Positions 8,227-28,327 of a stretch of 64,000 bases of DNA are shown here, one piece after another. The position numbers were made by a program, and so were the translations under genes. The notes under the pieces are model-generated. The model made no database searches, had not been told where the DNA came from, and saw only the letters and a program-made list of their open reading frames with translations. The stretch's first letter is position 1. Each line of letters starts with the position of its first letter. Source of the DNA: Carnobacterium alterfunditum DSM 5972 (GTDB lineage: Bacteria > Bacillota > Bacilli > Lactobacillales > Carnobacteriaceae); assembly GCF_000744115.1 (NCBI RefSeq), contig NZ_JQLG01000004.1:806001-870000 (forward strand), read 5' to 3'.

Positions 8227-9309
8227 TTACTTTACCTCCCTTTTAAGCGCCTTTTTTTTCGGTAACAACGCTTTAACAATTCCAGGAGCTGCAACGAAGA
8301 AGATTATAAGTGAAATAACGATTCCAATAATTTCACTTGGTACTCCTGCACCAAACTGCATTCCTTGTGATCCATAATCTAATGCTCCAATCAAGATACC
8401 TGCTAAGGTTGTCCCTATTGTTGAATTGCCTCCTAATAAAGCAACCGCCACACCATCAAATCCTACGCCACTTGTAGAAGATACGATCGCGACATATCCG
8501 TAAACGCCTAATGTATCCAAGGCTCCAATTAATCCACCTAATGCGCCAGAAATAAACATTGTCCGTATTAAAATCCCATTTACTTTCATCCCGGAATAAT
8601 TTGCGGCATCAGGATTTAACCCAACTGTTTTAGTTTCATAGCCCCACCGCGTTTTTTCAAAGAAATAATAAAATCCAAAAATGACGAATGGGATAATTAT
8701 GAAACCCCAGTGGATACGTGCACCGCTGAACAAATCATTTAATGAAGGAAAACTGACACTAGCTGATTCTTTAATAAGAGATGAGCGTGCTGTTCCCTCT
8801 TGTGCTGCAAAACTTTTGATTAACATATGACTCAGATACAATGCAATATAGTTCAACATGATTGAACTAATAACCTCATTGATCCCGAACTTAGTCTTAA
8901 GACTAGCGATCAAGACCCCCCATAAACCCCCAGCAATCACACCAACTATTATAGCTACTATTCCATGTATAACAGGAGGTAAATCAATTAATGTACCTAC
9001 TAAGAGAGAGCTGACTGCCCCCATAATAATCTGTCCATCAACCCCAATATTAAAAATACCAGCTTTACTGGCAACCGCAACTGCAAATCCACTTAAAATA
9101 AGTGGAATAATAGCACGGACGGTTTCACCTATATCGTAAGGTGAACCAAAAATCTTTAAAACTAATGATTCATAGGCTGCTATTGGGTCATATCCACCAA
9201 TCAGCATGACGATTGCTCCAATAACTAACGCAATTAAAACTGCAATCAGTGGAATAGTTGCTTGGCTATTCTTAAAGTCTTGTCTAATTTTTTCCATGGT
9301 CTCATTCAT
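8227..9309 (-). CDS. nupP: Nucleoside ABC transporter permease, first subunit
   Basis: A 360-aa membrane subunit of the same importer, corresponding to YufP/NupP. It shows the family pattern SGFAVAVASKAGIFNIGVDG and a coupling segment VGLNPDAANYSGMKV. I chose the ATG at 9307..9309, seven bases after AAAGGA; a GTG one codon upstream is also possible. The start lies inside the end of nupO (8-bp overlap), which suggests translational coupling. Confidence 0.88.
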   Translation of the reverse strand: MNETMEKIRQDFKNSQATIPLIAVLIALVIGAIVMLIGGYDPIAAYESLVLKIFGSPYDIGETVRAIIPLILSGFAVAVASKAGIFNIGVDGQIIMGAVSSLLVGTLIDLPPVIHGIVAIIVGVIAGGLWGVLIASLKTKFGINEVISSIMLNYIALYLSHMLIKSFAAQEGTARSSLIKESASVSFPSLNDLFSGARIHWGFIIIPFVIFGFYYFFEKTRWGYETKTVGLNPDAANYSGMKVNGILIRTMFISGALGGLIGALDTLGVYGYVAIVSSTSGVGFDGVAVALLGGNSTIGTTLAGILIGALDYGSQGMQFGAGVPSEIIGIVISLIIFFVAAPGIVKALLPKKKALKREVK

Positions 9310-10834
9310 CACCCGATCCTTTACCAGCCATCATTAGACCTAATTCTCTATCATTTGTTTCATTTGGTTTTGTTTGTCCGACTATTTGACCATCAAAAAT
9401 AATATCTATTCTATCTGATAAAGTTAGTATTTCTTCTAATTCAAAAGAAATAAGTAAGACCGCAACACCTTTATCCCGTAAGCGAATAACTTGACGATGG
9501 ATAAAATCAATCGCGCCAATATCAAGTCCACGGGTTGGTTGTACAATGATAAGCAGTTCTGGATCACGGCCAATTTCTCTTGATAAAATGACTTTCTGTT
9601 GGTTCCCACCAGACATACCGCGTACAATCGTTCGTTCATTCTCAGCGCGAACATCATAATTTTTCATAGCGGCCCTTGCTTCTTCGTACATCAATGTTTT
9701 ATTTAATTTGATCCCTTGATTATACTTCTCTTTGTAATATTCGATTAAAATTAAATTCTCTGCAATATCGTTATCCAATACTAATCCATGTTTGTGTCTA
9801 TCTGCTGGTACATAACTCACACCAGATTCATAGATTTCACGAGTTGATTTGTCTTTTTGAGAGACACCGTTAATTAATATGTCTCCTTCTTGGAAATCAC
9901 GCATTTTAACAATTGCCTCTGCTAATTCCATCTGACCATTTCCATCAACGCCAGCAATCCCCACAACTTCTCCAGCAGCAACAGATAGATTAATATTGTT
10001 TAATAGTTTCTTTTTACTCGGACTTAACATTGTAAGATTTTTGATTTCTAATACCTTTTGTTTAGGATCGTATGCTTGTTTATTAATCTCACGCGAAATA
10101 TTTTTACCAATCATCATTTCCGCAAGTTCTTCTTTATTTGAGTTTTTTATATCGACAGTAGAAATGTATTTCCCTTTACGAATAACGGTACATTTATTAG
10201 CTACTTTCATGATCTCATTTAATTTATGCGTAATCAAAATAATGGATTTACCCTCTGCTACCAACGTTTGCATTACTTGTAATAACTCACCGATCTCATC
10301 GGGGGTCAAAACAGCTGTAGGCTCATCAAATATCAATAAATTTGCTCCGCGATATAAGCATTTCAAGATTTCAACTTTCTGTTGCATGCCGACTGGTAGA
10401 TCCTCGATTTTACTATTTGGGTCTACTTTCAAACCATATTTTTCAGATATATTTCTAACTTCTTTAACAGCAGCCTTCATATTTAAGCGGATGCCGTTTT
10501 TTGGCTCCATACCAATAATGATATTTTCCGTGACCGTAAAATTTTCAATCAACTTGAAATGTTGGTGAACCATCCCAATACCTAAATGGATCGCATGGTT
10601 TGGATTTTCAATTTTTGTTTCATTTTCGTAGACTGAAATACTGCCTTCTTCAGGTTGGTACATACCGAAAACAACATTCATCAAAGTAGATTTCCCTGCA
10701 CCATTTTCGCCGAGCAAGGCGTGAATTTCTCCACGTCTTACAGTCAACGAAACGTCATCATTAGCAACAAAATTACCGAATCTTTTTGTAATATGTTTTA
10801 ATTCTAATACTTTTTCAACTCGTTTTTGTTCCAT
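9302..10834 (-). CDS. nupO: Nucleoside ABC transporter ATP-binding protein (duplicated ATPase)
   Basis: A 510-aa cytoplasmic ATPase with two fused nucleotide-binding domains, as in YufO/NupO and ribose-type importers. The first half has Walker A GENGAGKSTL, a Q-loop region (GMVHQHF) and LLIFDEPTAVLTP. The second half has a degenerate Walker A (GVDGNGQMEL), the signature MSGGNQQKVILSRE and LLIIVQPTRGLDIG. Asymmetric halves like this are normal for the family. It lies between the lipoprotein gene and the two permeases. Confidence 0.92.
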   Translation of the reverse strand: MEQKRVEKVLELKHITKRFGNFVANDDVSLTVRRGEIHALLGENGAGKSTLMNVVFGMYQPEEGSISVYENETKIENPNHAIHLGIGMVHQHFKLIENFTVTENIIIGMEPKNGIRLNMKAAVKEVRNISEKYGLKVDPNSKIEDLPVGMQQKVEILKCLYRGANLLIFDEPTAVLTPDEIGELLQVMQTLVAEGKSIILITHKLNEIMKVANKCTVIRKGKYISTVDIKNSNKEELAEMMIGKNISREINKQAYDPKQKVLEIKNLTMLSPSKKKLLNNINLSVAAGEVVGIAGVDGNGQMELAEAIVKMRDFQEGDILINGVSQKDKSTREIYESGVSYVPADRHKHGLVLDNDIAENLILIEYYKEKYNQGIKLNKTLMYEEARAAMKNYDVRAENERTIVRGMSGGNQQKVILSREIGRDPELLIIVQPTRGLDIGAIDFIHRQVIRLRDKGVAVLLISFELEEILTLSDRIDIIFDGQIVGQTKPNETNDRELGLMMAGKGSGDE

Positions 10835-10848
10835 TGTATGACTCTCCT

Positions 10849-11874
10849 TTATGGTTTCTCAGGAACTGTAATATCTCCAGAAATAATTTTTGTTTTGTAG
10901 TCTTCAACAAGATCTAATATGTCTTTTGGCACATTTTTATCTGATGTTGTTGCTAAGCCTACGCCATCTTCAGCTAAACCTAAACGAACAACTTCTCCAC
11001 CTGGGAAGTTTCCTTCAGCTGTTTTTTCAGAAATATCATATACTGCTCTGTCTACATTTTTCATCATAGAAGTTAATGTAATATCATCGCCAAATTCTAG
11101 TGATTGGTCTTTATCAACTCCGATCACCCAAACTTTTTCTCCATTATCAAAACGTTCTTGAGCTTCATTAAAAACACCATTTCCAGTACCGCCCGCAGCG
11201 TGGAAGATAGTATCTACACCATCGTTGTACATTGTAGAAGCAGCTGATTTACCCATATCCACACGGTTAAAGACACCGACGTAGTTTACAACTACTGTTG
11301 CTTCTGGGTTAACAGCCTTGACCCCTGCTTCAAAACCTGCATGGAAACGTTGGATAACTGGGATTTCCATTCCACCAACAAAACCAACTTTGTCTGTTTC
11401 AGTCATACTAGCTGCAACAACACCTGCTAGAAAAGCACCTTCGTTTTCTTTAAATGAAACTGAAACAATATTTTCAATCCCTTCAATATCTGAATCGATA
11501 ATACCTAATTTTGCATCTGGATTATTAGCAGCAATCGTTGTCACAGCATCTGCTAACGTTGCTGCGGTAGCCCAAGTCAAATCTGTTTGGCTATTAACAA
11601 ATTGAAGTAAACTTGGCTCAACTTCTGAATCTGCTTTAGGTTCTAAGTATTTCACTTCATACCCTTTATCTTTTTCTAATTGTTGTAACCCTTCCCACGC
11701 GCTTTGGTTAAATGACTTATCATTCACACTTCCTAAATCAGTTACCATGCCTAATTTGAAATCCGTTTTTTCGCTTTCATCCCCAGCTTCACTGGCACTG
11801 TCATTTCCACAAGCTGCCAATACTGTCATTGATAATAAAGCGAACCCAATAGTTTTAATAGTTGATTTTTTCAT
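10849..11874 (-). CDS. nupN: BMP-family nucleoside-binding lipoprotein
   Basis: A 341-aa substrate-binding lipoprotein of the BMP/TmpC (PnrA-like) family that presents nucleosides to the NupOPQ transporter. The N-terminus MKKSTIKTIGFALLSMTV leads to the lipobox LAAC, so Cys would be lipidated after signal peptidase II cleavage. The mature part shows FKLGMVTDLGSVNDKSFNQS and GFVGGMEIPVIQRFHAGFEA, both characteristic. The ATG at 11872..11874 follows AGGAG; a GTG further upstream overlaps the ribosome site. It is the second gene after deoB on the same strand, so import and breakdown may be co-transcribed. Confidence 0.92.
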   Translation of the reverse strand: MKKSTIKTIGFALLSMTVLAACGNDSASEAGDESEKTDFKLGMVTDLGSVNDKSFNQSAWEGLQQLEKDKGYEVKYLEPKADSEVEPSLLQFVNSQTDLTWATAATLADAVTTIAANNPDAKLGIIDSDIEGIENIVSVSFKENEGAFLAGVVAASMTETDKVGFVGGMEIPVIQRFHAGFEAGVKAVNPEATVVVNYVGVFNRVDMGKSAASTMYNDGVDTIFHAAGGTGNGVFNEAQERFDNGEKVWVIGVDKDQSLEFGDDITLTSMMKNVDRAVYDISEKTAEGNFPGGEVVRLGLAEDGVGLATTSDKNVPKDILDLVEDYKTKIISGDITVPEKP

Positions 11875-11907
11875 TTTTATCACTCCTGTAGTTTTTTATT
11901 TTATCTT

Positions 11908-13080
11908 TTAATTTAGTTCTGCTAAAAAGCTTTTGCCATTTCCTAATGCCGGTAAATCAAAGTTTGCAGCAATTGTCGCACCGATATCTGAAAAATAATT
12001 AGCTGTTTTCAACTCTTTTGCATTTTCAAATTGTTTTGAATAAGCAAGCAACGGAACATATTCGCGCGTATGATCTGTTCCTGGAGCGGTTGGATCATTT
12101 CCATGGTCTGCTGTTATCAGCAACAAATCTCCTTCTTCAAGTCTAGCTAGAATTTCTGGTAGACGCCTGTCAAAATCCATCAATGCTTCGCCATAACCTT
12201 TTGTATCTCTGCGATGTCCGTAAAGAGCATCAAAATCGACTAGATTAGTAAAAGACAACCCTTCAAATGGTTTTTCCATTACTTTTAATAATTGATCCAC
12301 TCCATCCATGTTGCTTTTTGTCCGAACTGCTTCAGTAATGCCATGTCCATTAAAAATATCGCTGATTTTACCTACTGCAATAACATCTTTTCCGTTAGCT
12401 TTAAGTTTATCTAATACTGTAGAACCAAATGGGCTTAGCGCGTAATCGTGCCGGTTAGCTGTACGTTTGAATGCACCCGGTTCTCCAAGATAAGGACGTG
12501 CGATGATCCGCCCGATCATATAAGGATCTTCTTTTGTGATCTCACGAACATACGCACATATATCGTATAACTCTTCTAAAGGGATAATTTCTTCGTGTGC
12601 TGCAATTTGAAGAACTGGATCAGCTGATGTATAAATAATCAAAGCTCCCGTTTCCATTTGCTCTTCACCTAATTCATCAAGAATACCTGTTCCAGATGCT
12701 GGTTTATTTCCAATAATTTTTCTTCCTGAATATGCGGTGATTTTTTCAAGCAACTCCTCTGGGAATCCCTCTGGAAAAACTCTGAATGGCGTGTCAATTT
12801 GCAAACCAGCAATTTCCCAATGACCCGTCATTGTATCTTTACCTACACTTTTTTCAGCTAACTTTGTCCAATACGCTTCACTTGCTGCTACCTTATTGAT
12901 CCCTTTCAAATCTGCAATATTTCCTAAACCCATTTTTTCTAGGTTTGGTAAGGCTAACTCCATTGATTCCGCGATGTGTCCTAGTGTATGTGAACCTGTA
13001 TCATTAAATGATGCCGCATCTGGTGCTTCACCAATTCCAACTGAATCTAACACAATCAAATGAATCCGCTCGCTTTTCAT
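11908..13080 (-). CDS. deoB: Phosphopentomutase
   Basis: A 390-aa alkaline-phosphatase-superfamily mutase that interconverts (deoxy)ribose 1-phosphate and 5-phosphate. The N-terminal metal site [19 protein letters not shown], the phosphothreonine region [10 protein letters not shown] and the C-terminal metal motif [22 protein letters not shown] are all present. Length is normal. It stands first in a transcript that continues into the nucleoside importer. It lies 65 bp from the divergent Crp/Fnr-type regulator gene. Confidence 0.95.
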
Positions 13081-13145
13081 ATTTCTTTTCCTCCCTATTT
13101 AGTGGTACAATCTTATTGCTATTAAAATTTTATTGAGGTGAAAAC

Positions 13146-13805
13146 ATGAGTAAAGGTATTAAATTGTTTGATGGTCTTTCAGATGAACAGATCAAAACTA
13201 TCTTAAATTCCATCCCATCTAGAAAATATAAAAAGAATCATATCCTCATTTTTGAAGAGGATCCCATTGATCAAGTCTATATTATTAAAAGCGGTGCTTT
13301 AAAAATTTATAGAGCGTATGAAGATAAAGAAATCATCCTTGACTTTGTTAGAAAACATGAAGTAATCGGAGAAGTTGAACTTTTTTCTAAAAGCCCAGCT
13401 CTATCTTCTGTTGAAGTCACTGAAGATGCTGAAATTCATCATCTGTCTCAGGCTGATTTTATTGCTTTAATCTATAAAAATAAAATAATTCTGGAAAATA
13501 TTTTCCGAATCCACCATCAACGCTTTGAAACATTGAATAAACAAATAAGAAATTTAACTTTCTATAGTGTCCACACTCGCGTTTGTCGTGTTTTACTTGA
13601 TTTTATCGAGAACAATGAAAAACCCAATGATTTAACGATAAAAAATATCAACCAAAGCACGATTGCTAGTATGATTGGTGTAACACGTGAATCCGTTTCT
13701 AAAGCGTTTAAAGATTTACAAGATGAACATATCCTCTCATTACAGCCAAAGACGATAACCGTCCTTGATATGGATAAATTACAAGCATATGCAAATTTTG
13801 ATTAA
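13146..13805 (+). CDS. Crp/Fnr-family transcription regulator
   Basis: A 219-aa DNA-binding regulator. Residues about 5-120 form a cyclic-nucleotide-binding-like beta roll (ILIFEEDPIDQVYIIKSGALKI ends near residue 58). A long dimer helix follows. The C-terminal winged helix has NQSTIASMIGVTRESVSKAF as its recognition part, where the R-E-S-V-S-K core is typical of the family. There is no N-terminal cysteine cluster, so it is not an iron-sulfur Fnr. It is divergent from deoB and upstream of deoD, which makes nucleoside genes likely targets. The effector is unknown. Confidence 0.85.
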   Translation: MSKGIKLFDGLSDEQIKTILNSIPSRKYKKNHILIFEEDPIDQVYIIKSGALKIYRAYEDKEIILDFVRKHEVIGEVELFSKSPALSSVEVTEDAEIHHLSQADFIALIYKNKIILENIFRIHHQRFETLNKQIRNLTFYSVHTRVCRVLLDFIENNEKPNDLTIKNINQSTIASMIGVTRESVSKAFKDLQDEHILSLQPKTITVLDMDKLQAYANFD

Positions 13806-13835
13806 TGCTCTATCGGCTTGTCTTTATAATAGAAC

Positions 13836-13851
13836 AGAAAGCGCTTTCTTT
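13836..13851. promoter_or_regulatory. cre-like CcpA site upstream of deoD
   Basis: AGAAAGCGCTTTCT is a palindrome that matches the catabolite-responsive element consensus well. A second weaker match, ATAACGCTTTCAT, lies near 13903..13916. They lie about 135 and 60 bp before deoD, which suggests carbon catabolite control of nucleoside phosphorolysis. Confidence 0.6.
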
Positions 13852-13974
13852 CGATGACTTATCCAACAGCTTTAGTGTGAACATGATTACCTCTTGTTAG
13901 ATAACGCTTTCATAACGCTTATCGTTTTTATCCTTTATCATAGGTATTAACCACATAAGAGGAGGAATTTATTT

Positions 13975-14679
13975 ATGAGTTTTCACATTAGTGCAAAAGA
14001 AGGTCAAATTGCTGACATCGTTTTATTACCTGGGGATCCGCTTCGTGCAAAATATATTGCTGAAACATTTTTAGAAGATGCTGTTTGCTACAATACTGTT
14101 AGAAATATGCTTGGTTATACAGGAACCTATAAAGGTAAAAAAATTTCCGTACAAGGTACTGGAATGGGAATGCCTTCTGCAGTCTTGTATATCCATGAAT
14201 TAATTAATGATTACGGTGTTAAAACATTGATACGTGTTGGAACGTGTGGAGCTATTCAAAAAGACGTACATATTCGTGACGTTATCATTGCTCAAGCTGC
14301 AGCGACAGACTCCTCCCTTATTTTTAAAGACCTAGCGCCAATTTACTTCCCACCAATCGGTAATTATGGTTTGATCAGTAACGCTTTCAATATCGGAACT
14401 GAGAAAGACATGACCATTCATGTTGGAAACGTCTTTTCTTCTGACACATTCTATAACGATACTGAAGATACAATGAACAGTATGACAAAACTTGATGTAT
14501 TAGGTGTAGATATGGAAACAGCCGGTCTTTATTACCTAGCATCTAAATTCCATGTGCGTGCTCTTAGTATCTTAACTGTTAGTGACCACCTGATTACTGG
14601 AGAACAAACATCAGCTGATGAACGTCAAACAAGCTTCAGCGAAATGATTGAAGTCGCATTAGAAGCCGCTATTAAATAA
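13975..14679 (+). CDS. deoD: Purine-nucleoside phosphorylase, DeoD type
   Basis: A 234-aa hexameric phosphorylase that splits purine (deoxy)nucleosides into base and (deoxy)ribose 1-phosphate, which DeoB then isomerises. The family pattern [19 protein letters not shown], the phosphate-site [18 protein letters not shown] and the substrate region [12 protein letters not shown] are visible. The acid-base Asp lies in [10 protein letters not shown]. The ATG follows AGGAGG. It is a single gene with its own terminator, separate from the deoB-nup transcript. Confidence 0.95.
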
Positions 14680-14695
14680 ATCAATGAACAACAGG

Positions 14696-14750
14696 AAAAA
14701 ACCGTTATAAAGTCTTTTTTCAAAAGACACTTATAACGGTTTTTATTTTT
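14696..14750 (+). terminator. Terminator of deoD
   Basis: A long hairpin AAAAACCGTTATAA/TTATAACGGTTTTT with an inner CTTTT/AAAAG stem is followed by TATTTTTT. Confidence 0.9.
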
Positions 14751-14838
14751 TGGGCAACATCAGGATCAACTAGTCTAACGTATTCTTATAAATAGCTAAC
14801 TTTCACGTAGTCTAGTCTAATTGATTCCGACATAAAGC

Positions 14839-14905
14839 AAAAATTGATGGGCGTGAGTCCGGTTCGATACAGCATCCACGCCAGCCAATCAGCTGCTTAA
14901 TATTA
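14839..14905. repeat. Dispersed hairpin repeat, copy A
   Basis: A segment from AAAAATTG through GGGCGTGAGT, ATCCACGCCAGCCAATCAGC and CTTAATAT. It aligns over about 65 bp with 58629..58697 (roughly 70% by eye). The unit is an imperfect hairpin: the left GGGCGTG faces the right CACGCC. Both copies sit in gene-free intervals. Confidence 0.6.
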
Positions 14906-14956
14906 AAAGACCTATAATTTTAGTGTTGATAGACTTAATCTAATGGCATTACTTAC

Positions 14957-15121
14957 TCAAAATTTATGGAGGAATAGGGTTGCTTGTAGCCTAAAATGAA
15001 GCACTGTGGGCAAATAACGCCCAAGTATATCATGTTTGTAAGCTGCTAAAGCAGCAACAACCATGACAACTTTTTTAGGCTTCAGGCGTTCCCTTGGCTC
15101 TCCACAAGCAAACCCGTCCAT
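14957..15121 (-). other. Structured element overlapping a 54-codon open frame
   Basis: This 540-bp gap (14751..15290) has no ordinary gene, but a dense set of inverted repeats occupies 14977..15115. GGGTTGCTTGT pairs with ACAAGCAAACCC and AGCCTAAA with TTTAGGCT. Inside are hairpins GGGC-N7-GCCC and GCTGC-TAAA-GCAGC. The minus strand also holds a 54-codon frame starting MDGFACGEPRERLKP and ending FLHKF. It could be a structured RNA, a repeat element, or a small protein; I cannot decide. The ribosome site before the ATG is weak. Confidence 0.35.
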
Positions 15122-15290
15122 TCCAGAAGAAATTTTTTTGAAGTATTCTCACCATTTGATGTAAGACCATATTAAAACGTTATCTTTCGGGGGTCAGAAC
15201 ATAGCTGCTAAATCTAGCTATGAAACAAATTCAAAGAACTAAACTTTTAGAATCATTCTTTCTAACACCATTAGTTATCATTATCTATTT

Positions 15291-16451
15291 TTAAATACTT
15301 TTTATTTGAGTTCTACGGTTTAGTATCGACAATACAATCGATCCTAATCCAAAGGACACAGTAATGAAACCGAGGATCCAACCAATAAATGGTATGATCC
15401 CTAAAATAGTTAGAATGATCAATCCTAATAAGAATACCCAAAAAGATTGTACATTGGACCAGCTAAATCTTTTCTGGAACCAAAGACTTATAAAAACGGC
15501 AAGAATGATCGTTGAAACATAAAGGGATAATCCGTATAGCGTTAATAAGATAAAAGCTAAAGGTATTCCTATAATGGTAAGCATCAAAAGCAACGAAACT
15601 ATTGGAACTACTACAACAGCTAACGCTCCAAAACCAAGTGCTTTAAGTTGAGAGATCGTTATTTGTTCGGCTAAGTTAGTCCATAAATCAGGTCTGATCC
15701 ATCTGACAAACAGCCATACGACTAAAGATGCTGCTATGCTAAAGAGAACTTGCATCAAGATTGCGGTAGTGAATATCGCTCTTGAATCTTTATAAGACTC
15801 AAGTTCCATTTTTTTCCAAGTTGTTTCGCCTGCGACTTCAGAATTTCCTGAAAAATCAGCCTTATTTTGACTACTGTAGTCTAAATCTCCGCCAATTTTT
15901 CCGCCAACAGATAGCGATTCGCTTGAGCTAGATAAATCACCATTGATCACACCATTTTGATAGGCTTGAGATGCACCCACAAAAGCATCTTTCTCAATCA
16001 CTGCAGCTTTTTCAATGGAGACATTTTGTCCTGCTAGAAAAGCACTACCATTTGTTTGAGATCCCACTTTTAAGGTAGCTCCAGCTAGATAAATAGTATT
16101 TTCAACAACACCGTTTACGGTGATATTCTGTCCTGCTACAAATACACTCCCATTGACTGTGCCGTTTATAGTAGCGTTTTGACCTGTAACAAATAAATCT
16201 CCATCAATCGTCCCGTTAACCTCTGTGTTAGCAGCTGTTATAAAAGTAGTCGCATTTATATCCCCATCGACACGTACATTTGACCCTGAAAGAAAACTAG
16301 TTTTTTCTAAAGTCTCATCTGACTCTACGATGACGTTGTCACCAGAAATCGTTTCAGCTAGAACGCTCACAAAAGGAATCAACATAAAAGCAACAAGCAG
16401 AATCGATAGAAGCAAGACGTTGCGTTTTTTATTCCCTTTAATCTTAAACAT
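15291..16451 (-). CDS. Secreted bactofilin-like (polymer-forming) membrane protein
   Basis: A 386-aa protein with an N-terminal signal segment (VLLLSILLVAFMLIPFVSVLAE). A region of about 165 residues follows with short repeats of the form G-x-hydrophobic (NGTIDGDLFVTGQNATING, NGSVFVAGQNITVNG, GSAFLAGQNVSIE). This is the right-handed beta-helix pattern of bactofilins. From about residue 225 come four or five membrane helices (TTAILMQVLFSIAASLVVWL to ILGFITVSFGLGSIVLSIL). The repeat part would lie outside the cell, unlike classical cytosolic bactofilins. The start follows GGAAGAGGTGC. It appears to be a single gene. Function is unknown; a scaffold at the cell surface is inference. Confidence 0.75.
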   Translation of the reverse strand: MFKIKGNKKRNVLLLSILLVAFMLIPFVSVLAETISGDNVIVESDETLEKTSFLSGSNVRVDGDINATTFITAANTEVNGTIDGDLFVTGQNATINGTVNGSVFVAGQNITVNGVVENTIYLAGATLKVGSQTNGSAFLAGQNVSIEKAAVIEKDAFVGASQAYQNGVINGDLSSSSESLSVGGKIGGDLDYSSQNKADFSGNSEVAGETTWKKMELESYKDSRAIFTTAILMQVLFSIAASLVVWLFVRWIRPDLWTNLAEQITISQLKALGFGALAVVVVPIVSLLLMLTIIGIPLAFILLTLYGLSLYVSTIILAVFISLWFQKRFSWSNVQSFWVFLLGLIILTILGIIPFIGWILGFITVSFGLGSIVLSILNRRTQIKSI

Positions 16452-20824: not shown

Positions 20825-21970
20825 TTACCATTCTGCTATAGTACCATCAAAGTTTTTCCATTGAGGATTTGTCCAAATTAGCCCTTCTTGGGAAATTTCT
20901 TCAATCAAATCCTCATTTAATTCTAAACCAAGACCAGGTTTCGTTGGAAGACCAACAAAACCATCTTTATATTGAAAAATTTCTTTGTTATGAACAAAAT
21001 CTAGCAAATCAAAGCCCTTATTATAATGAATTCCTAAACTTTGCTCTTGGATGAACACATTTGGCGTACAAGCGTCAACCTGTAATGTTGCAGCCAATGC
21101 AATAGGTCCATATGGAGCGTGTGGCGCAACAGCCACATCATAAGCCTCAGCCATTGCTGCTATCTTCTTAGTTTCTAAAATACCACCAACTAAAGCAACA
21201 TCTGGTTGTATAATGTCTATACTTCCTTGTTTAAAAATATTTTTGAATGCCCATCTAGAATACAAGCGCTCTCCAGTTGCTAATGGTGTAGAAACATGTT
21301 GTGCTATTTCAGAGAATGCTTCCTCATTTTCTGGCAAGACAACTTCTTCTAAAAACATGGGTTTTAATGCCTCAAGTTCTTTTGCCAATACTTTAGCCAT
21401 TGGTTTGTGAACTCTACCATGAAAATCTACAGCAATCTCCATTTCATATCCTAATTTTTCACGGATTGAAGCAACTCTGTCTACTACTTTTTGAACCTCT
21501 TTAAACGAATCAATATAATGCAATTCTTGAGTAGCATTCATTTTTACAGCTCTAAATCCTCGATCGTAACGATCCATTGCTTCAGCTACTACGTCTTCAG
21601 GTCTATCACCACCGATCCAAGAATACACTTTAATGCTATCTCGTGCAGCTCCACCTAGTAATTCGTAAACAGGGACATTAAAATATTTCCCTTTAATATC
21701 CCACAAGGCCATCTCAATGCCAGAAATAATTGTTCCGTTTATTGGTCCTCCTCTGAAAAATGAACGGTGTAACTCTTGCCATAATCTTTCGATTTCAAAC
21801 GGATTTCGACCAATAATTCTTTTACCCATCTCATAGGCTCCAGAGACAACTGTTTCCGTTTTTGTACCAGAAATCATTTCTCCCCAACCCTCGATACCTT
21901 CATCGGTGCTTATCTTGATAAAAATCCATCTTGGCTTAATTTTGTAGACTTTAACATCTGCAATTTTCAT
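20825..21970 (-). CDS. dgoD: Galactonate-dehydratase-like enolase-superfamily enzyme
   Basis: A 381-aa acid-sugar dehydratase of the mandelate-racemase branch of the enolase superfamily, about the length of E. coli DgoD. The capping domain is N-terminal (IKPRWIFIKISTDEGIEGWGE). The barrel carries the D-x-H pair in EIAVDFHGRVH, metal ligands in MFLEEVVLPE and ATGERLYSRW, the partner Asp in IQPDVALVGG, the catalytic His in APHAPYGPIALA and Glu in FIQEQSLG. It would make a 2-keto-3-deoxy acid. It is the last gene of an operon with a PTS and a KDPG-type aldolase and no kinase. The true substrate may therefore be a 6-phospho-aldonate; that is inference. Confidence 0.85.
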   Translation of the reverse strand: MKIADVKVYKIKPRWIFIKISTDEGIEGWGEMISGTKTETVVSGAYEMGKRIIGRNPFEIERLWQELHRSFFRGGPINGTIISGIEMALWDIKGKYFNVPVYELLGGAARDSIKVYSWIGGDRPEDVVAEAMDRYDRGFRAVKMNATQELHYIDSFKEVQKVVDRVASIREKLGYEMEIAVDFHGRVHKPMAKVLAKELEALKPMFLEEVVLPENEEAFSEIAQHVSTPLATGERLYSRWAFKNIFKQGSIDIIQPDVALVGGILETKKIAAMAEAYDVAVAPHAPYGPIALAATLQVDACTPNVFIQEQSLGIHYNKGFDLLDFVHNKEIFQYKDGFVGLPTKPGLGLELNEDLIEEISQEGLIWTNPQWKNFDGTIAEW

Positions 21971-21991
21971 TTTTCATCCTCCATCAATTAG

Positions 21992-23386
21992 TTATATAGG
22001 TTTTTCTTCTGTTTCCAACTCTCTTTGTTCTCTAGCTAATTTAGTTTTGGGTTTCATAATTTCAAAGTAATACCAGAAGATTGCAATAATAATAAGCATT
22101 ATTGGCATAGTAATTAGTAACGGACCAATAAAGGCAAAGAATACTAAGAAACTATGTGATAAGCTGGTTGCTGAAAATGATGAGATAAATAAAGCACCAC
22201 CTGCAACCGCTACTTCAATACCTATTGAAGATGCAAGCTCAGTTAGAATAGGTGCAGTAATTGAACCTGCATATAAAATAGCTGTGGTAGTTGCTAGCCC
22301 AATAATAATATTTTTAAAAAAGTTTCCACGTGTAAGTGCAACAACAAAGGCAATTCTAAAAGGAATAATCGCTAGATCAGCGAAAGGTAACATTCTATTT
22401 CCGGGTAATATAAACGCAAGTCCAATAGTTAAGGGAATTAAAATCAAAGCTGTAGTAATAACATCTTGATTACCTACTACAACAGCTGCATCAAGTCCAA
22501 TAAATAATTTTCTGTTTTTGAATTTTCTTTGAGACCAATTTTGTGCTGCTTCTGAGATAGGCATTAAACCTTCGACAAATAAAGAGGTCATTTTAGGAAT
22601 GATAACTAGTACTGCAGACATACTTACTCCTAATTGCAATGAAGCTGTAATATCGTATCCACCTAATAAACCAATAGCTGAACCTAATATCAAACCTAAT
22701 ATCATTTGATCTCCAAAAAAACCAAGATACTTTTGAACATCTTTAAGGGTCACATCAATTTTATTTATGCCAGGAATTTTATCTAATAACCAATTTAAAG
22801 GCCAAGCAAGTAACAATGTAGAAGTTGCCGATACTGTTGGCAGTGAAACTCCAGGAATACCGAAGAATTTTTCAATTAATGGTTGAGACCAATCGGCAAT
22901 CTTAAAGGTTGTCATTGCCATAACCACTGATGCACCTATACCAAGCCAAATATTGCCTGTGACATAGTGAACCATAATACCCACAATTGCCATATGATGA
23001 TAATTCCAAATATCAACATCTAGCGTGTTGGTTGTTTTGGTTAATAACATAATGATGTTTACTGCAAATATTGAAAGAACAATAAAAACAATAATAGGAG
23101 AAGACCATGTGACAGCTGCGATAGAGCCCCAACCTACATCTAAAACATCTAAGTTTATTCCCACATTTTCAACCATTGCTCTAGAAGCAGGTCCTAAGTT
23201 TGAGGACATGTAATCTAGTAACAATCTGATTCCAGCAAAACCAATACCTAATGTTAAACCTGATTTAAATGCTTTTCCTAATTTTAAACCAAAGAATAAT
23301 CCAATAATGGTTATAATAACTGGCAACATAACCGTTGGCCCAGCATTGATAAGCCAATCAAATCCTGACATTATTGCTTTCCACAT
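21992..23386 (-). CDS. PTS galactitol-family EIIC component
   Basis: A 464-aa, multi-helix membrane permease of the PTS galactitol (Gat) family. The N-terminal LINAGPTVMLPVIITIIGLFFGLK and the segments AGIRLLLDYMSSNLGPASRAMV and VGNQDVITTALILIPLTIGL are typical of GatC-like proteins. It would translocate a polyol or sugar acid while the IIB partner phosphorylates it. It lies between IIB (24 bp upstream) and the dehydratase. The dehydratase and aldolase context argues for an aldonic acid rather than galactitol. Confidence 0.88.
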   Translation of the reverse strand: MWKAIMSGFDWLINAGPTVMLPVIITIIGLFFGLKLGKAFKSGLTLGIGFAGIRLLLDYMSSNLGPASRAMVENVGINLDVLDVGWGSIAAVTWSSPIIVFIVLSIFAVNIIMLLTKTTNTLDVDIWNYHHMAIVGIMVHYVTGNIWLGIGASVVMAMTTFKIADWSQPLIEKFFGIPGVSLPTVSATSTLLLAWPLNWLLDKIPGINKIDVTLKDVQKYLGFFGDQMILGLILGSAIGLLGGYDITASLQLGVSMSAVLVIIPKMTSLFVEGLMPISEAAQNWSQRKFKNRKLFIGLDAAVVVGNQDVITTALILIPLTIGLAFILPGNRMLPFADLAIIPFRIAFVVALTRGNFFKNIIIGLATTTAILYAGSITAPILTELASSIGIEVAVAGGALFISSFSATSLSHSFLVFFAFIGPLLITMPIMLIIIAIFWYYFEIMKPKTKLAREQRELETEEKPI

Positions 23387-23410
23387 AATTTTCCCTCCTT
23401 GATCTGCTTT

Positions 23411-23686
23411 TTATTTTAGATAACTCAAAATCTCTTTAAGCGTATCTTCTTTACCAATACCAGTTAATAAAGATAAACCACCTACAATAGGAGCATTAAC
23501 TTTACCGCCAAATTGACCTGTTGTAACAACTAAATCATAATCATCGCCTTTTCCAGGAACCTCCATTAATTTACATTGCTCCGTTTTAATACTTACTCCT
23601 TCTTTTTCAGCATAATCTCTTATTTTAGATGCTACCACCGTTGATGTTGCGATTCCATTGCCACAAGCTACTAATACTCTTTTCAT
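23411..23686 (-). CDS. PTS EIIB component, galactitol type
   Basis: A 91-aa cytoplasmic phosphocarrier. MKRVLVACGNGIATSTVVA carries the active Cys8 in the P-loop-like C-x-x-G-x-x-T-S pattern of the lactose/galactitol IIB fold. It takes phosphate from the IIA partner and passes it to the incoming substrate in IIC. It lies between the IIA and IIC genes with short gaps. The ATG follows AGGAGG. Confidence 0.9.
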   Translation of the reverse strand: MKRVLVACGNGIATSTVVASKIRDYAEKEGVSIKTEQCKLMEVPGKGDDYDLVVTTGQFGGKVNAPIVGGLSLLTGIGKEDTLKEILSYLK

Positions 23687-23708
23687 AATATTTCCTCCTA
23701 ATAGTTTT

Positions 23709-24167
23709 TTAATTTAAGTAGGGTTCTAACACACTTAACACTTTATCCTTATCCGTCATTTCTGTAATTTTTTTGGTTAACTTATCATTTTGGATAATTG
23801 ATACAACTTTCTGTAACATTTCTATTTGACCATGAGGTTCTTTTATAGCTAACATCATAACGATTTGTACATCTAATTCTTTCTCAATATTTTCCATTGA
23901 ACAAAATTTTGCGGCTTTTTTTAATATACCGATAGCAATAGTCGTTTTGTTTACTAGGTCATTATCTGCATGAGGAATAGCGATATTAACTCCTAAAGAA
24001 GGTAAACCAGTTGGATAAATATTTTCCCTATCAATAATAGCTTTTTGATAACCTGGCTTTACATATTTATATTCAAGCAATTTGCCAGACATAAAATTTA
24101 GAACATCTTCTTTTTTTTCAAACTCTAAGTTAGGAAAAATCAAATTTTTATCAAGATTTAACTTCAT
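23709..24167 (-). CDS. PTS EIIA component, fructose/mannitol/galactitol type
   Basis: A 152-aa cytoplasmic IIA phosphocarrier. The active His66 is in GVNIAIPHADND, and DVQIVMMLAIKEPHGQIEML is the usual second conserved block of the EIIA_2 fold. It receives phosphate from HPr. It is the second gene of the sigma-54-dependent operon. A related EIIA-like domain forms the C-terminus of the neighbouring activator, which may sense the state of this system. Confidence 0.9.
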   Translation of the reverse strand: MKLNLDKNLIFPNLEFEKKEDVLNFMSGKLLEYKYVKPGYQKAIIDRENIYPTGLPSLGVNIAIPHADNDLVNKTTIAIGILKKAAKFCSMENIEKELDVQIVMMLAIKEPHGQIEMLQKVVSIIQNDKLTKKITEMTDKDKVLSVLEPYLN

Positions 24168-24193
24168 ACAGGAATTACCCCCTCTCTTATTTT

Positions 24194-24829
24194 TTATTTA
24201 GAATCCATTTTACAGAGTACTTTTTTGTCAAATAAAGTTAATGATTCTTTTAATCCAGTACTATTTTGACTTAATATATCTTCTTTATTAAAAATCCCAG
24301 ATGCTATTCCTACATACGCAGCTTGATTATCAAAGAATTCAAGCGCATTACCAGAAGAGACCCCTCCGACAGCCATTAATGGAAGTTTTCCTAATGGAGC
24401 TTGAATATCCTTGAAAAATTCAACTCCTACTATGCTAGCTGGAAATATTTTTATAATATCTGCACCATTATTTTTAAGTTCCATTACCTCAGTCGCTGTC
24501 ATGGCTGCTGGAATACTTAATATTTTTTTTGCTTTACATACATCTAAAATTTCTTTACTTAATTTGATTGGTGATAATATAAACCGAGCTCCTGCATCTA
24601 TAGCATTATTTGCATCTTCTAGAGACAAAACAGTCCCAGCACCAATATAAAATTTTTCGCCAAATTCTCTTGAAATTTTGTTAATTGTAGTAAAAACATC
24701 TGGTGAATTTAAAGTGATTTCAAGTGCAAACTGTTGATGCTTATCTTTTAAAACTTCCATAACTGTTTTTACCTGTTCATAAGTATAGCCTCGCAAAATA
24801 ATGGTAACCTTTGGAAAGTTATCTTTCAT
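24194..24829 (-). CDS. KDPG/KDPGal-type aldolase
   Basis: A 211-aa class I aldolase of the KHG/KDPG family that cleaves 2-keto-3-deoxy-6-phospho-aldonate to pyruvate and glyceraldehyde-3-phosphate. FYIGAGTVLSLEDANNAIDA, GARFILSP and the Schiff-base Lys in DIIKIFPAS are visible. The usual PG-TPTE loop is altered to IPAAMTATE. I chose the ATG at 24827..24829 behind GGAGGTGGG; the longer frame would start inside the promoter region. It is the first gene of the operon. Whether it prefers the gluconate or galactonate epimer cannot be told from sequence. Confidence 0.88.
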   Translation of the reverse strand: MKDNFPKVTIILRGYTYEQVKTVMEVLKDKHQQFALEITLNSPDVFTTINKISREFGEKFYIGAGTVLSLEDANNAIDAGARFILSPIKLSKEILDVCKAKKILSIPAAMTATEVMELKNNGADIIKIFPASIVGVEFFKDIQAPLGKLPLMAVGGVSSGNALEFFDNQAAYVGIASGIFNKEDILSQNSTGLKESLTLFDKKVLCKMDSK

Positions 24830-24859
24830 TTTCCCACCTCCTCTGTATACCTTTATATA

Positions 24860-24876
24860 TGCAAGTAGCATGCCAA
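24860..24876 (-). promoter_or_regulatory. Sigma-54 (-24/-12) promoter of the sugar-acid operon
   Basis: On the minus strand the sequence is TTGGCATGCTACTTGCA. It matches the RpoN consensus TGGCAC-N5-TTGCA with only one change in the core and exact spacing between GG and GC. It lies 30 bp upstream of the aldolase start, right after the stop of the LevR-type activator gene. Transcription would begin near 24849. Confidence 0.88.
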
Positions 24877-24884
24877 GTTTTGGC

Positions 24885-27773
24885 TTATAATGTTATCTTA
24901 GTTAGAATAGAATGGATTTCTTCATTTGATGTAGACTCCAGAAGGAGCTGAGAAATGTTATCTTTATAAAGAAGCTTATACAAATCTTCAATTTCTTTTC
25001 CATTATGTTCAGTTAATGCAAGAAGAAAAATAAGACTGACATATTGATTATTTTCCCATAATATAGGTGTGGCTAGTTTTGTAATTGAGATGGCTGGTTG
25101 TGTAATATACTTACTTTCTCCATGTGGAATAGCAATCCCACCTTCTAAAAATGTATTTCCCATTGTTTCTCTTTTGTATACGCTTAATATGTATTCACCT
25201 GTTACTTTTTGCTGTTTTATTAATTTTTTCGTCATTCTGTCTAACACATCATTTTTTGTAACAAAATTATTTTCTATATGAATTAATTCTAAATCTATAT
25301 AATTTTTTAGTGTATTTTCTCTATAAATCTTTCCCTTACTATTTAAAATGTGAAGTAATTTATTGCTTTTACTTAACAAATCTTCAGCGGATACAAATGA
25401 TACATTATTATAATTCGGATTAATTGTTCCTACTATTGCAACAATCTCATTCGAGTGACCAATTTTGTCAAGTGCAGTAGAAGTATCTTCTGTAGAGAAA
25501 AAACCCATAGGAACAATCTCAATATCTTCATCAAAATCCATAATTGATGTTTCAATATAATTTTTTAATACTTTAGCTGCGCCTTCTCCTGTTAAACATA
25601 AGGTTACAATCACTTTTTTTCTTTTTATTGGTGACACAAAAGTGCTTCCTGTTAAAAATTTTTTTGAATCAATTTCATCAGCAAGATTATCTAGTGTGTC
25701 CTCCGGCAATAGCGCACGTCTGACGGATTCTATAACCATTAAAGTATCAACTCTACCAACTACTCGCACTAATATACCTGTCCGTGCTGAAATAATATCT
25801 CCAAATAAAATTAATGATCCCATATCGGCTAATATAAGTACTCCTTTTCCTTGATCAGCATTTTTAACGAGTGGAATAGTTTTTTCTAGCATTAAATTCG
25901 GAGAGTCTGTTAAATCCATTTCTAACCCTAATGCATGGTCTACACCTAACAATTTATTTGCTACATCTGCCATACCTTTAGCGACATTCCCGTGCGATAG
26001 TACAACTACTCCTATCTTTGTGGTTTTAATTTGCATATCTTCTTTAAAATTTTTGAGATACATTGCTATAAAACCAACTTCATCTTGAGGTAAATTTATA
26101 TCATATTCTCCATCGATAAATTCTTTTATAAAAGTAGCAGCCTTATATTCTTCTTTATATTCTTGTTTAATATTATTTAAATTTGGATTTATTGTTACTT
26201 TATTAGAAAAAAATCGATTAATAGCTGAATTCAAATGGATGGCTAATGGAAAAATCAATTTACTATCTAAATTGCTTAAATACTTGTCTGCTATTTGAAA
26301 ACTTTTTTTTGTAGCTTCTAGAGCTTCCGTACCGATTATATTTTTTAGTATTTCGTAGCTCATTTCTTTTTTGTAACTAATTTTAGAAAGACGCTGCATT
26401 TCTCCATCAATTCTTTCGCTTAAAATCGATTTGATGTTATCTTCTGTATAATTCTCTAATTTCATTGTCTTATAAGTATTTTCAATAAAGTCATAAATAG
26501 TTTCTGTTTGCATAAGTACTGAAACTGCTCTCATTTCTTTATTTTCGTTTTCTTTACTGTCACTTTCGTTGATGATTAAATCTGTATGGCTGAATAAATA
26601 AACTTCTTCATCAAAATTATTTTTATTAATAATTTCTCCAATAATTTGCTTAGGTAAATCTTGAAAATTTATTATAATTTTACTCTTTTGATTTATTGTT
26701 GCATGAAGAAAACCCTTAGCAGAAGTAGCTTGTATGTCACTTTTCAACTGTCCAATATTGCCTTTACAAGAATAAGATAGTAGTGATTTTATTACATCTC
26801 TTTTTATTTTAAAAGGTTTGTTAACACGTTTGCTTTCATTTTCAAAAAACATTTTTATAAAATTATATTTTTCATTAGTTGTTCTTTCATGGTAACTAGG
26901 CATTTCAATATTAATAGGAATTCTTCTTCTAAAAGTTAGTAATAATGTTTTCGAAGGATCTTCTGTAGTCGCTCCTATTAAAAGTAACTTACTTTTTCTT
27001 GTTAACTCAGTTTCTCCTAGTCTTCTATATAAATTTTGATCTAAAAGATAAAACAAAATCTCTTGTCCTTCAGGTGGTAAACGATGAATTTCATCTAAGA
27101 ATAAAATACCTCCATCACATAATTCTACAAGACCTTTTTTATCTTCTGTTGCTCCTGTAAATGCTCCTTTCACATATCCAAAAAGTTGAGAAAGCAGTAG
27201 TTGGGGATTTTCTGCATAATCTGCACAGTTAAATATTTCAAAACGAACATTTTCTTTAAAATTTTTTGTCGTTTTACTATATTCATACATTTTTTGTGCA
27301 ACAAAACTTTTTCCGGAACCAGATGGACCAACAATAAGGGTGTGCAACCCCATTGGAGGATAAAGAATAGATGCTTTGGCTTGATTGATTTGTGTTTTCA
27401 GGCTATCATTCGATCCAATCAGATCTTCAAATGGATCAACTTCTTCTTTTGGTTTAAGTACTTCAGGAACAAATAGTTTCTCTTGCACATCTTTTCGATA
27501 TTTGTTTACTGAAGACCGCGCGATAATGAAACCGTATGCATTTAGTTTTTCAGTTAATTTTCTTTCAGATATTTTGGGTTGTTTTGTTAAAATATTAACG
27601 ATTTCGTATTCTATTAATTTTTTTCGTCTAGTTCTCGAATCTGGAATACTTGCTTCAATTCTCAATTTTGTTATATTTTCTCTAAAAGTATTTAATAATT
27701 CAGCAAGCTCAATATCAGTGTGAGGGTTTCTAGAATCTTCATTTTCTATTATATTCTTCAAGTTATTTATCAT
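24885..27773 (-). CDS. LevR/DgaR-type sigma-54 activator with PTS regulatory domains
   Basis: A 962-aa transcription activator. A winged-helix DNA-binding domain lies near residues 45-95 (KQPKISERKLTEKLNAYGF). The AAA+ domain follows, with Walker A GPSGSGKS, the sigma-54 contact loop GAFTGA and Walker B GILFLDEIHRL. Next come a PRD-like helical part (about 430-570), an EIIA-mannose domain (VVVLSHGNVAKGMADVANKL) and a GatB-like domain with CLTGEGAA. The end looks like an EIIA-fructose/Gat domain (GGIAIPHGESKY), where LevR has a second PRD. It should activate the adjacent operon when that PTS substrate is present. A TATAAT box stands about 45 bp upstream of its ATG. Confidence 0.88.
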   Translation of the reverse strand: MINNLKNIIENEDSRNPHTDIELAELLNTFRENITKLRIEASIPDSRTRRKKLIEYEIVNILTKQPKISERKLTEKLNAYGFIIARSSVNKYRKDVQEKLFVPEVLKPKEEVDPFEDLIGSNDSLKTQINQAKASILYPPMGLHTLIVGPSGSGKSFVAQKMYEYSKTTKNFKENVRFEIFNCADYAENPQLLLSQLFGYVKGAFTGATEDKKGLVELCDGGILFLDEIHRLPPEGQEILFYLLDQNLYRRLGETELTRKSKLLLIGATTEDPSKTLLLTFRRRIPINIEMPSYHERTTNEKYNFIKMFFENESKRVNKPFKIKRDVIKSLLSYSCKGNIGQLKSDIQATSAKGFLHATINQKSKIIINFQDLPKQIIGEIINKNNFDEEVYLFSHTDLIINESDSKENENKEMRAVSVLMQTETIYDFIENTYKTMKLENYTEDNIKSILSERIDGEMQRLSKISYKKEMSYEILKNIIGTEALEATKKSFQIADKYLSNLDSKLIFPLAIHLNSAINRFFSNKVTINPNLNNIKQEYKEEYKAATFIKEFIDGEYDINLPQDEVGFIAMYLKNFKEDMQIKTTKIGVVVLSHGNVAKGMADVANKLLGVDHALGLEMDLTDSPNLMLEKTIPLVKNADQGKGVLILADMGSLILFGDIISARTGILVRVVGRVDTLMVIESVRRALLPEDTLDNLADEIDSKKFLTGSTFVSPIKRKKVIVTLCLTGEGAAKVLKNYIETSIMDFDEDIEIVPMGFFSTEDTSTALDKIGHSNEIVAIVGTINPNYNNVSFVSAEDLLSKSNKLLHILNSKGKIYRENTLKNYIDLELIHIENNFVTKNDVLDRMTKKLIKQQKVTGEYILSVYKRETMGNTFLEGGIAIPHGESKYITQPAISITKLATPILWENNQYVSLIFLLALTEHNGKEIEDLYKLLYKDNISQLLLESTSNEEIHSILTKITL

Positions 27774-28166
27774 TATTGTAATCTCCCTTTTTTACATAGA
27801 TTACCTTATTATACAATAATGAGGTATAGATATAATTTTTTTTGAATAATAAGCAGTATTATAGTTAACCTCGTAATAAATTTTAGCATTGCTAAAGTGA
27901 TTACAATTAGCTATTTGATCTGTTTAACTTAACAAATCTTAGGTAAATATTATTATTAAAATATTCGCGAAATCATAATCAATTTTTCAAAATCGAAAAA
28001 AACAAATTTCCTTAAAAAGAAGCTCATCTGTTTTATGGACTATTCTATTCTTTACTAAAGCAAACTTTTCAGGGAAATTACTCAGTATCATTATCTTGGC
28101 TTTCTAATAGACTGTTTAAAAATATTTTTACTCTTCTTCATTATCAAAATTCGTTTTATTAGGGTT
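27774..28166. other. Gene-free upstream region of the activator
   Basis: The minus strand carries the activator promoter (TATAAT near 27812). The perfect 15-bp dyad TTTAGCATTGCTAAA near 27882..27897 could be an operator. No small gene is supported. Confidence 0.4.
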
Positions 28167-28327
28167 ATTGATCAAATGAGTAGCGAGCTGAGGTTCTATT
28201 TGACTAATACCACAGGGGTATTGATCAAATGAGCAGCGAGCTAAGGTTCTGTTTGACTCATACCATGCGAGTATTGATCAAACGAGTAGCGAGCTAGGGT
28301 CCCATTTGACTAATATTACTACAGGGA
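28167..28327. repeat. Three tandem 53-bp repeats
   Basis: Units start at 28167, 28220 and 28273. Each begins TATTGATCAAA, continues GAG(T/C)AGCGAGCT and ends TTTGACT(A/C)AT before a short variable part. TCAAA and TTTGA within a unit can pair, so each unit can fold as a hairpin about 30 nt long. Units differ at scattered positions, so the array is old. The units are contiguous with no spacers, so it is not CRISPR. Confidence 0.8.

Follow-up and report, generated by a model that had tools for sequence, protein, structure and literature searches.

The window studied here, i.e. a stretch of 64,000 nucleotides from Carnobacterium alterfunditum DSM 5972 (contig NZ_JQLG01000004.1, positions 806,001 to 870,000), carries on its minus strand an operon that specifies, in this order, a LevR-like regulator, an aldolase, the enzymes IIA, IIB and IIC of a galactitol-family (Gat) phosphotransferase system (PTS) and a dehydratase of the DgoD (galactonate dehydratase) family. 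We consider it likely, from sequence comparisons, that this operon encodes a PTS-fed, kinase-free pathway that breaks down D-galactonate or a closely similar aldonate of galacto configuration. The Gat-family IIABC would import D-galactonate and phosphorylate its terminal CH2OH, giving D-galactonate 6-phosphate; the dehydratase would convert this compound directly to 2-keto-3-deoxy-6-phosphogalactonate (KDPGal), and the aldolase would split KDPGal into pyruvate and glyceraldehyde 3-phosphate. A 2-keto-3-deoxygalactonate (KDGal) kinase would be unneeded, because the PTS would already have added the phosphate at the expense of phosphoenolpyruvate (PEP). The chief rivals to this proposal are that the substrate is another galacto-configured acid, and that the phosphate is removed before an ordinary DgoD step.

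Gene content of the operon and absence of a recognisable kinase

All five genes listed in the original prediction were verified on the minus strand, and its claim that a Gat-family PTS, an aldolase of the KDPG (2-keto-3-deoxy-6-phosphogluconate) type and a galactonate-dehydratase-like enzyme stand together is borne out by the genes and by their Pfam and NCBIfam matches alike. The aldolase (24194..24829; open reading frame, ORF, listed to 24871), IIA (23709..24167) and IIB (23411..23686) are above the Pfam cut-offs, the matching family being PF01081 for the aldolase and PTS_EIIA_2 for IIA. IIC (21992..23386) matches EIIC-GAT (PF03611) with 279.5 bits for a cut-off of 24.2, and the dehydratase (20825..21970) matches the NCBIfam galactonate dehydratase model NF010624 with 602.6 bits for a cut-off of 311. 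The His of ‘IPHAD’ in IIA and the Cys of ‘VACGNGIATS’ in IIB are presumably the functional residues of these proteins. A misassembled or one-off operon was ruled out, since the same gene order is found in many named genomes and plasmids.

Concerning the PTS, ‘galactitol-family’ is, judged by its sequence, the right label and ‘galactitol PTS’ overreaches. In galactitol, the Gat PTS phosphorylates the terminus that ends up as C6 of D-tagatose 6-phosphate, and this terminus has the same configuration as C4-C6 of D-galactonate; a Gat-family IIC would thus be a natural carrier for galactonate, with the phosphate placed on C6. The window proteins belong to the same IIA, IIB and IIC families as GatABC but are all under the galactitol-specific NCBIfam cut-offs (56.1 vs 139, 52.5 vs 95 and 401 vs 542.2 bits, respectively), and ORF reading and Pfam revealed neither a galactitol-phosphate dehydrogenase nor a tagatose aldolase gene within the operon. 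That a galactitol PTS merely adjoins unrelated galactonate genes is therefore very improbable in our opinion, even if the Gat family names speak for it and if a study of Enterococcus faecalis, in the passages accessible to us, assigns such a PTS to galactitol metabolism (PMC6042284); moreover, clusters with the same IIC lineage (type I, see below) retain the order aldolase-IIA-IIB-IIC-dehydratase in several families and on plasmids. The genome holds a second Gat-family IIC (479 bits) about 1.7 kb past the window end (contig C4:871708-872841).

The original prediction also stated that the operon is without a KDGal kinase, and this absence holds genome-wide. The search for a kinase elsewhere, which it had put forward as a check, was run on the whole genome (rated 99.98% complete) and found no recognisable kinase for KDGal or for 2-keto-3-deoxygluconate (KDG). 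PF05035 (DGOK) had 0 matches; of 14 controls given the same search, E. coli and Caulobacter had matches. Five PfkB-family matches were found, four of them above the cut-off: these four proteins resemble a ribokinase, a 1-phosphofructokinase, a borderline hexose kinase and an HTH-PfkB sugar kinase, and score at most 52 bits with the KDG/KDGal kinase models, for cut-offs of at least 400. The fifth, weak match is, as read by eye, a protein of the pyridoxal kinase type. Given the lack of PF05035 matches and the resemblance of the PfkB proteins to other kinases, a hidden KDG/KDGal kinase was ruled out; the KDGal kinase that defines the classical DgoD-DgoK-DgoA pathway was not found in this genome. 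An Entner-Doudoroff route from 6-phosphogluconate via the operon was rejected too, because the genome has no IlvD/EDD-type dehydratase and because the aldolase is of the Val type (see below).

Seen beside its relatives, the operon is one case of a pattern and no isolated oddity. The dehydratases of the loci collected (designated by L numbers) were grouped by the loop that follows GWGE, and neighbours were counted within 6 kb on the same strand. Among the loci with an SGT loop, to which the window enzyme belongs, a Gat-type IIC is present in 52 out of 52, the aldolase in 49 and DgoK in none; a PfkB protein occurs in two (L010 and L132, which have similar neighbourhoods) and is most like the 1-phosphofructokinase of the window genome. 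The three loci where the aldolase went uncounted are L088, whose cluster spans the start of a circular record, L090, cut by the record end, and L134. The latter holds only a IIC, with its first 60 residues unmatched, and the dehydratase; tblastn found no regulator, aldolase, IIA or IIB, and the locus is possibly rearranged. Where the loop is EG[RK], the picture is reversed: IIC 0/50, aldolase 43/50 and a DgoK- or PfkB-family kinase 44/50, the loci without a counted kinase being L056, L058, L063, L066, L076 and L085 (in L056 and L085 a kinase lies on the opposite strand). L030 and L033 are outside the 52-locus table, and L070 (loop EGC, with a PfkB gene near) and L124 (a 39% relative on a short contig) belong to neither loop group. 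Both kinds occur in one genome (G314), where PTS and aldolase accompany the SGT-type copy (L120) and DgoK and aldolase the EGR-type copy (57%; L123), so that within a single genome each loop type is found in its own setting. These counts support the view that PTS and kinase are mutually exclusive around this dehydratase family and that the exclusion tracks the residue signature.

The dehydratase and its SGT loop

None of the 84 aligned dehydratases departs from D182, E208, E234, H184 and H284 (window numbering), which we take to be the metal ligands and acid/base residues. In contrast, other positions separate the two groups: G35, T36, A259 and Y287 are found in 34/34 PTS-associated enzymes, against E, G, S and L in 50/50 kinase-associated ones, so that the DgoD invariants E35, G36, S259 and L287 are not kept in the window enzyme (Glu35-Gly36 of E. 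coli DgoD corresponding to Gly-Thr). Further separating invariant columns are 72 (F in the PTS group, Y in the kinase group) and 80 (T and S, respectively), and residue 260 is L or M vs H. L030 and L033 were lost from this table by the ORF filter; both were read directly and both are in the trees. Residues 34-38 read S-G-T-K-T in 34/34 PTS-associated dehydratases, a basic residue at 37 being common in both groups. This segment is presumably the capping-domain loop on which specificity depends in the mandelate racemase subgroup, and in the AlphaFold model of the window enzyme (mean pLDDT 87.8) a helix, 38-52, directly follows the SGT loop: the loss of an acidic residue before the helix and the gain of hydroxyl residues would suit a phosphate. 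On the basis of this signature we propose that the enzyme is a 6-phosphogalactonate dehydratase. We know of no described enzyme of the mandelate racemase subgroup that uses a phosphorylated sugar acid. The N-terminal domain is stated, in the accessible part of a paper on related dehydratases, to be the main determinant of specificity (PMC9795676). The closest structural match of the model is a Ralstonia enolase-superfamily protein, 3rra (TM 0.93, 48% identity), whose sister entry 3rr1 is named putative D-galactonate dehydratase. In the tree, which is unrooted, built by a quick method and lacks L120-L122 and other flank-fetched stretches of the order-wide search, 36 PTS-associated dehydratases form one side of a branch with an SH-aLRT of 100 and a length of 0.67.

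Several observations weigh against a phosphorylated substrate or lessen the force of the comparison. By its score of 602.6 bits the enzyme is still an ordinary DgoD, and it may therefore act on unphosphorylated galactonate. The position of the loop and general knowledge of the family are what suggest that residues 34-38 extend to the C6 end of the substrate, and many of the separating residues may just reflect one long branch; residue 259 is Ile rather than Ala in three relatives at 67-68% identity, where the SGT loop and Y287 hold. The loci are not independent, because of shared ancestry and because some of L125-L139 repeat L006-L036 neighbourhoods, and the PfkB proteins of the kinase group are only putative KDG/KDGal kinases. 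In Coprothermobacter, a galactarate/altronate-dehydratase-like gene (L035:6773-7966; PF20629, PF04295) lies directly before the dehydratase gene and is unaccounted for by the proposed pathway. Finally, a histidine-phosphatase gene accompanies some Enterococcus and Streptococcus clusters (e.g. L011, L014, L022, L024, L027 and L090).

The phosphatase genes bring up one of the two chief rivals: the PTS would phosphorylate galactonate, a phosphatase would strip the phosphate, and an ordinary DgoD step would yield free KDGal, to be cleaved or phosphorylated by a promiscuous enzyme. Such a route would agree with a dehydratase that is above the DgoD cut-off and keeps all catalytic residues, and in L013 a HAD hydrolase follows the cluster. 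We nevertheless judge it decidedly unlikely: the window operon contains no phosphatase gene by ORF reading and Pfam, KDGal would be left without a kinase since none is recognised in the genome, spending PEP only to discard the phosphate would be wasteful, and a loop signature that follows the PTS would stay unexplained.

Aldolase specificity, promoter and regulator

The window aldolase is related both to the KDPGal aldolase 2v81 and to KDPG aldolases. Its score with the NCBIfam KDPGal aldolase model NF006600, 122.5 bits, is under the cut-off of 207, and it is also under the cut-off of every other model listed, KDPG included. According to the accessible part of PMC4915726, KDPGal and KDPG aldolases differ, in relation to stereochemistry, at V154/T161 and in strand 1. 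At the position of E. coli DgoA V154, Val is present in the window enzyme and in 33/33 PTS-associated aldolases read; in the kinase group the residue varies (24 Thr, 19 Val and 2 Met among 45, taking the best aldolase per locus), hence Val is consistent with the PTS group and not exclusive to it. For the window operon the aldolase residues fit a galacto substrate, and cleavage of KDPGal would be the expected activity. The genome has another KDPG-type aldolase, with Thr at this position, beside an apparent mannose-family PTS. It belongs to a second PTS-aldonate-like cluster (8662-16288, minus strand, of L144, i.e. C4:94000-111000), which also contains, as named by eye, a 2-hydroxyacid dehydrogenase, a 6-phosphogluconate-dehydrogenase-like and a glycerol-dehydrogenase-like protein; no sugar kinase was seen by eye among the ORFs of at least 130 amino acids in these 17 kb.

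The regulator gene (24885..27773, minus strand) specifies a LevR-like sigma-54-dependent activator with Pfam sigma-54 activation, PRD, EIIA-man and EIIA_2 domains; with the NCBIfam DagR model (NF047795) it scores 459.3 bits, under the cut-off of 1400. A sigma-54 promoter, TTGGCAT-GCTAC-TTGCA (-24/-12; 24860..24876, minus strand), with one mismatch to the 16-base consensus, starts 8 bases past the regulator stop codon and lies directly before the aldolase gene. A strong ribosome-binding site, AGAGGAGG, is present at 24837-24844 and is followed by an ATG at 24829; this ATG is most likely the aldolase start, rather than 24871, because the longer frame overlaps the promoter. When 34 clusters were taken (L035, L088 and L090 being skipped since they had no aldolase call), a -24/-12 site with 0 or 1 mismatch was found before the aldolase in 11/11 clusters with a LevR-type regulator and in 0/20 clusters with the other regulator type, where the best match had 3 to 5 mismatches. 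By chance, about 0.01 sites of such quality are expected per scanned stretch. In the whole window, sites with at most 2 mismatches show no excess over chance (26 vs 24 expected); the promoter argument therefore rests on position and conservation. The genome contains rpoN. By analogy with DgaR and LevR, the regulator is presumed to be a sensor of PTS activity: through phosphorylation of its PRDs, it would activate the sigma-54 promoter, and with it the operon, whenever the PTS is handling substrate. Upstream of the regulator gene, the window has three head-to-tail repeats of 53 bases (28161-28319; 100, 89 and 79% identity to the first copy).

Relatives, apparently exchangeable PTS types and known systems

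The relatives scan used one genome per species. Among the best 80 of 565 confirmed loci, 31 (L006-L036) have dehydratases 96 to 74% identical to that of the window, and the next 49 are at about 60% and below. The former come from Carnobacteriaceae, Aerococcaceae, Enterococcus, Streptococcus, Clostridium, Selenomonadaceae, Fusibacter, Oscillospiraceae and Coprothermobacter. Across 395 genomes of the order, 27 were found to have a dehydratase match at E ≤1e-60, and flanks were fetched for 20 of 28 matches; three matches from one genus, at 67-68% identity, partly bridge the identity gap and have the loop SGTRT, a Gat PTS of a third type and a different gene order. G314, the genome with both loop types, is among those that gave these three matches. 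The dehydratase gene is also found at 80-90% identity on 19 plasmid records, 18 of which are listed and belong to E. faecium, E. faecalis, E. durans and Lactococcus, and at 77% on one plasmid of Latilactobacillus curvatus. In three out of four plasmid loci read, PTS genes accompany aldolase and dehydratase; the fourth (L090) ends at the record end, and in the circular record L088 no separate IIA is annotated. Two clusters per genome occur in Enterococcus malodoratus (L020 and L027, a pair that differs in PTS type) and in Enterococcus sp. PF1-24 (L022 and L026). A 163-amino-acid protein without NCBIfam match (L087:10173-10664) has relatives encoded just after the dehydratase in most Enterococcus clusters, in 2/3 named Streptococcus loci and in Facklamia.

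Three IIC lineages were distinguished, the window IIC being of type I. In the IIC tree (46 rows, built by the quick method and flagged for long branches; L123, L124, L126, L127, L129, L132 and L134-L139 are not in it), a group of 7, type II, has a PTE-family gene in 7/7 loci, while type I has it in 0/33. The PTE-family gene of L088 matches PF02126 with 176.8 bits, and its 137 bits with the NCBIfam phospho-furanose lactonase model are under the cut-off of 630; a search of the open-access literature for PTE-family lactonases acting on phosphorylated lactones gave nothing usable. In type III, the two scanned loci, L035 and L121, each carry a 2-hydroxyacid dehydrogenase, and L121 an AP_endonuc_2 TIM-barrel protein as well. 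Aligned directly, type II and III IICs (L030, L035 and L121) are only about 33-35% identical to the window IIC, so that ‘Gat-type’ covers distant proteins. In L020 and L088 the dehydratase groups with those of Enterococcus clusters that have a type I PTS and the IIC is of type II: here the dehydratase was apparently retained and the PTS replaced by another. A PTS enzyme I gene lies directly downstream of the dehydratase in L023 (9184-10899); L032 has a 571-amino-acid ORF in the same place.

These accessory genes bear on the other chief rival, i.e. that the same pathway logic serves another galacto-configured acid, such as D-talonate, 2-keto-galactonate or galactonolactone. The PTE-family genes of all type II clusters and the dehydrogenases of the type III clusters L035 and L121 suggest that the compounds taken up lie one step before the aldonate; L035 has, in addition, the galactarate/altronate-dehydratase-like gene. 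For the window itself this is unlikely in our view: type I clusters have no PTE-family gene and Pfam revealed no dehydrogenase in the operon, which argues that the PTS should deliver the dehydratase's own substrate, and the DgoD catalytic residues are unchanged. The simplest reading of the cluster comparison would be that a single phosphorylated aldonate is supplied by several PTSs, each paired with an adapter enzyme of its own. A broader scenario, to which we give an even chance, is that a clade of the mandelate racemase subgroup has turned into a 6-phospho-aldonate dehydratase and forms, with a KDPGal aldolase, a mobile core served by exchangeable PTS cartridges (one for galactonate, one with a PTE-family protein for galactonolactone and one with a 2-hydroxyacid dehydrogenase for a keto acid) that converge on galactonate 6-phosphate, and that has spread to plasmids of enterococci, Lactococcus and Latilactobacillus.

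Known systems share parts of this layout. The dgo operon of E. coli (DgoT, DgoD, DgoK and DgoA, the DeLey-Doudoroff route; the K-12 locus was compared) uses the same dehydratase and aldolase families and the same last intermediate, KDPGal, but there a symporter imports free galactonate and DgoK acts on KDGal; in the window operon the PTS replaces both. The dga operon of Salmonella, for D-glucosaminate, has a KDPG-type aldolase and no known kinase. Its accessible descriptions also report a LevR-like sigma-54 activator with PTS uptake (PMC4987338) and an enzyme acting on a 6-phosphate (PMC9529869). The parallel with dga drawn in the original prediction stands for the LevR-like regulator, as judged from its domains, and for the sigma-54 promoter; it fails for the PTS, which is of the mannose family in dga, together with an ammonia-lyase, and of the Gat family in the window, together with an enolase-superfamily dehydratase. 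According to the part of PMC11219438 that was accessible, bacterial D-galactonate breakdown runs through dehydratase, KDGal kinase and aldolase in this order, and the route of Aspergillus terreus has a galactonate dehydratase and no kinase; the latter route cleaves free, unphosphorylated KDGal, unlike the PTS-derived phosphate that we propose for the window operon.

Sets of Gat PTS, dgoD and eda genes have been noted in E. faecalis blood isolates and in an E. cecorum clade with many clinical isolates; going by gene names only, they are probably the same cluster as ours. In the passages available from these two papers, PTS, dehydratase and aldolase are not joined into one phosphorylated pathway (PMC6042284, PMC10117131). 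Passages available from studies of sigma-54 regulons (PMC6615313, PMC12316311), of E. faecalis RpoN (PMC8262876) and from three other papers (PMC13204991, PMC10644037, PMC3142484) contained nothing on an operon of this type. For Tetragenococcus halophilus, the accessible text mentions predicted galactonate clusters and does not describe their genes; the strains tested produced no acid from dulcitol, i.e. galactitol (PMC8605565). Among the matches listed in the open-access literature search, the term ‘phosphogalactonate dehydratase’ did not occur, by which its absence in print is not established. The suggestion that the pathway is undescribed is supported to the extent that we found no description in that literature, and no further.

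If our interpretation is true, the proteins now called galactonate dehydratase would fall into two groups with different substrates, told apart by a short loop, and an intensively studied enzyme superfamily would gain a phosphorylated sugar acid as a substrate. It would also give a function to what appears to be a gene set of E. faecalis blood isolates, of the clinical E. cecorum clade and of Enterococcus plasmids, and would link this set to galactonate, a compound that, according to the accessible part of PMC6027507, appears in human serum after milk.

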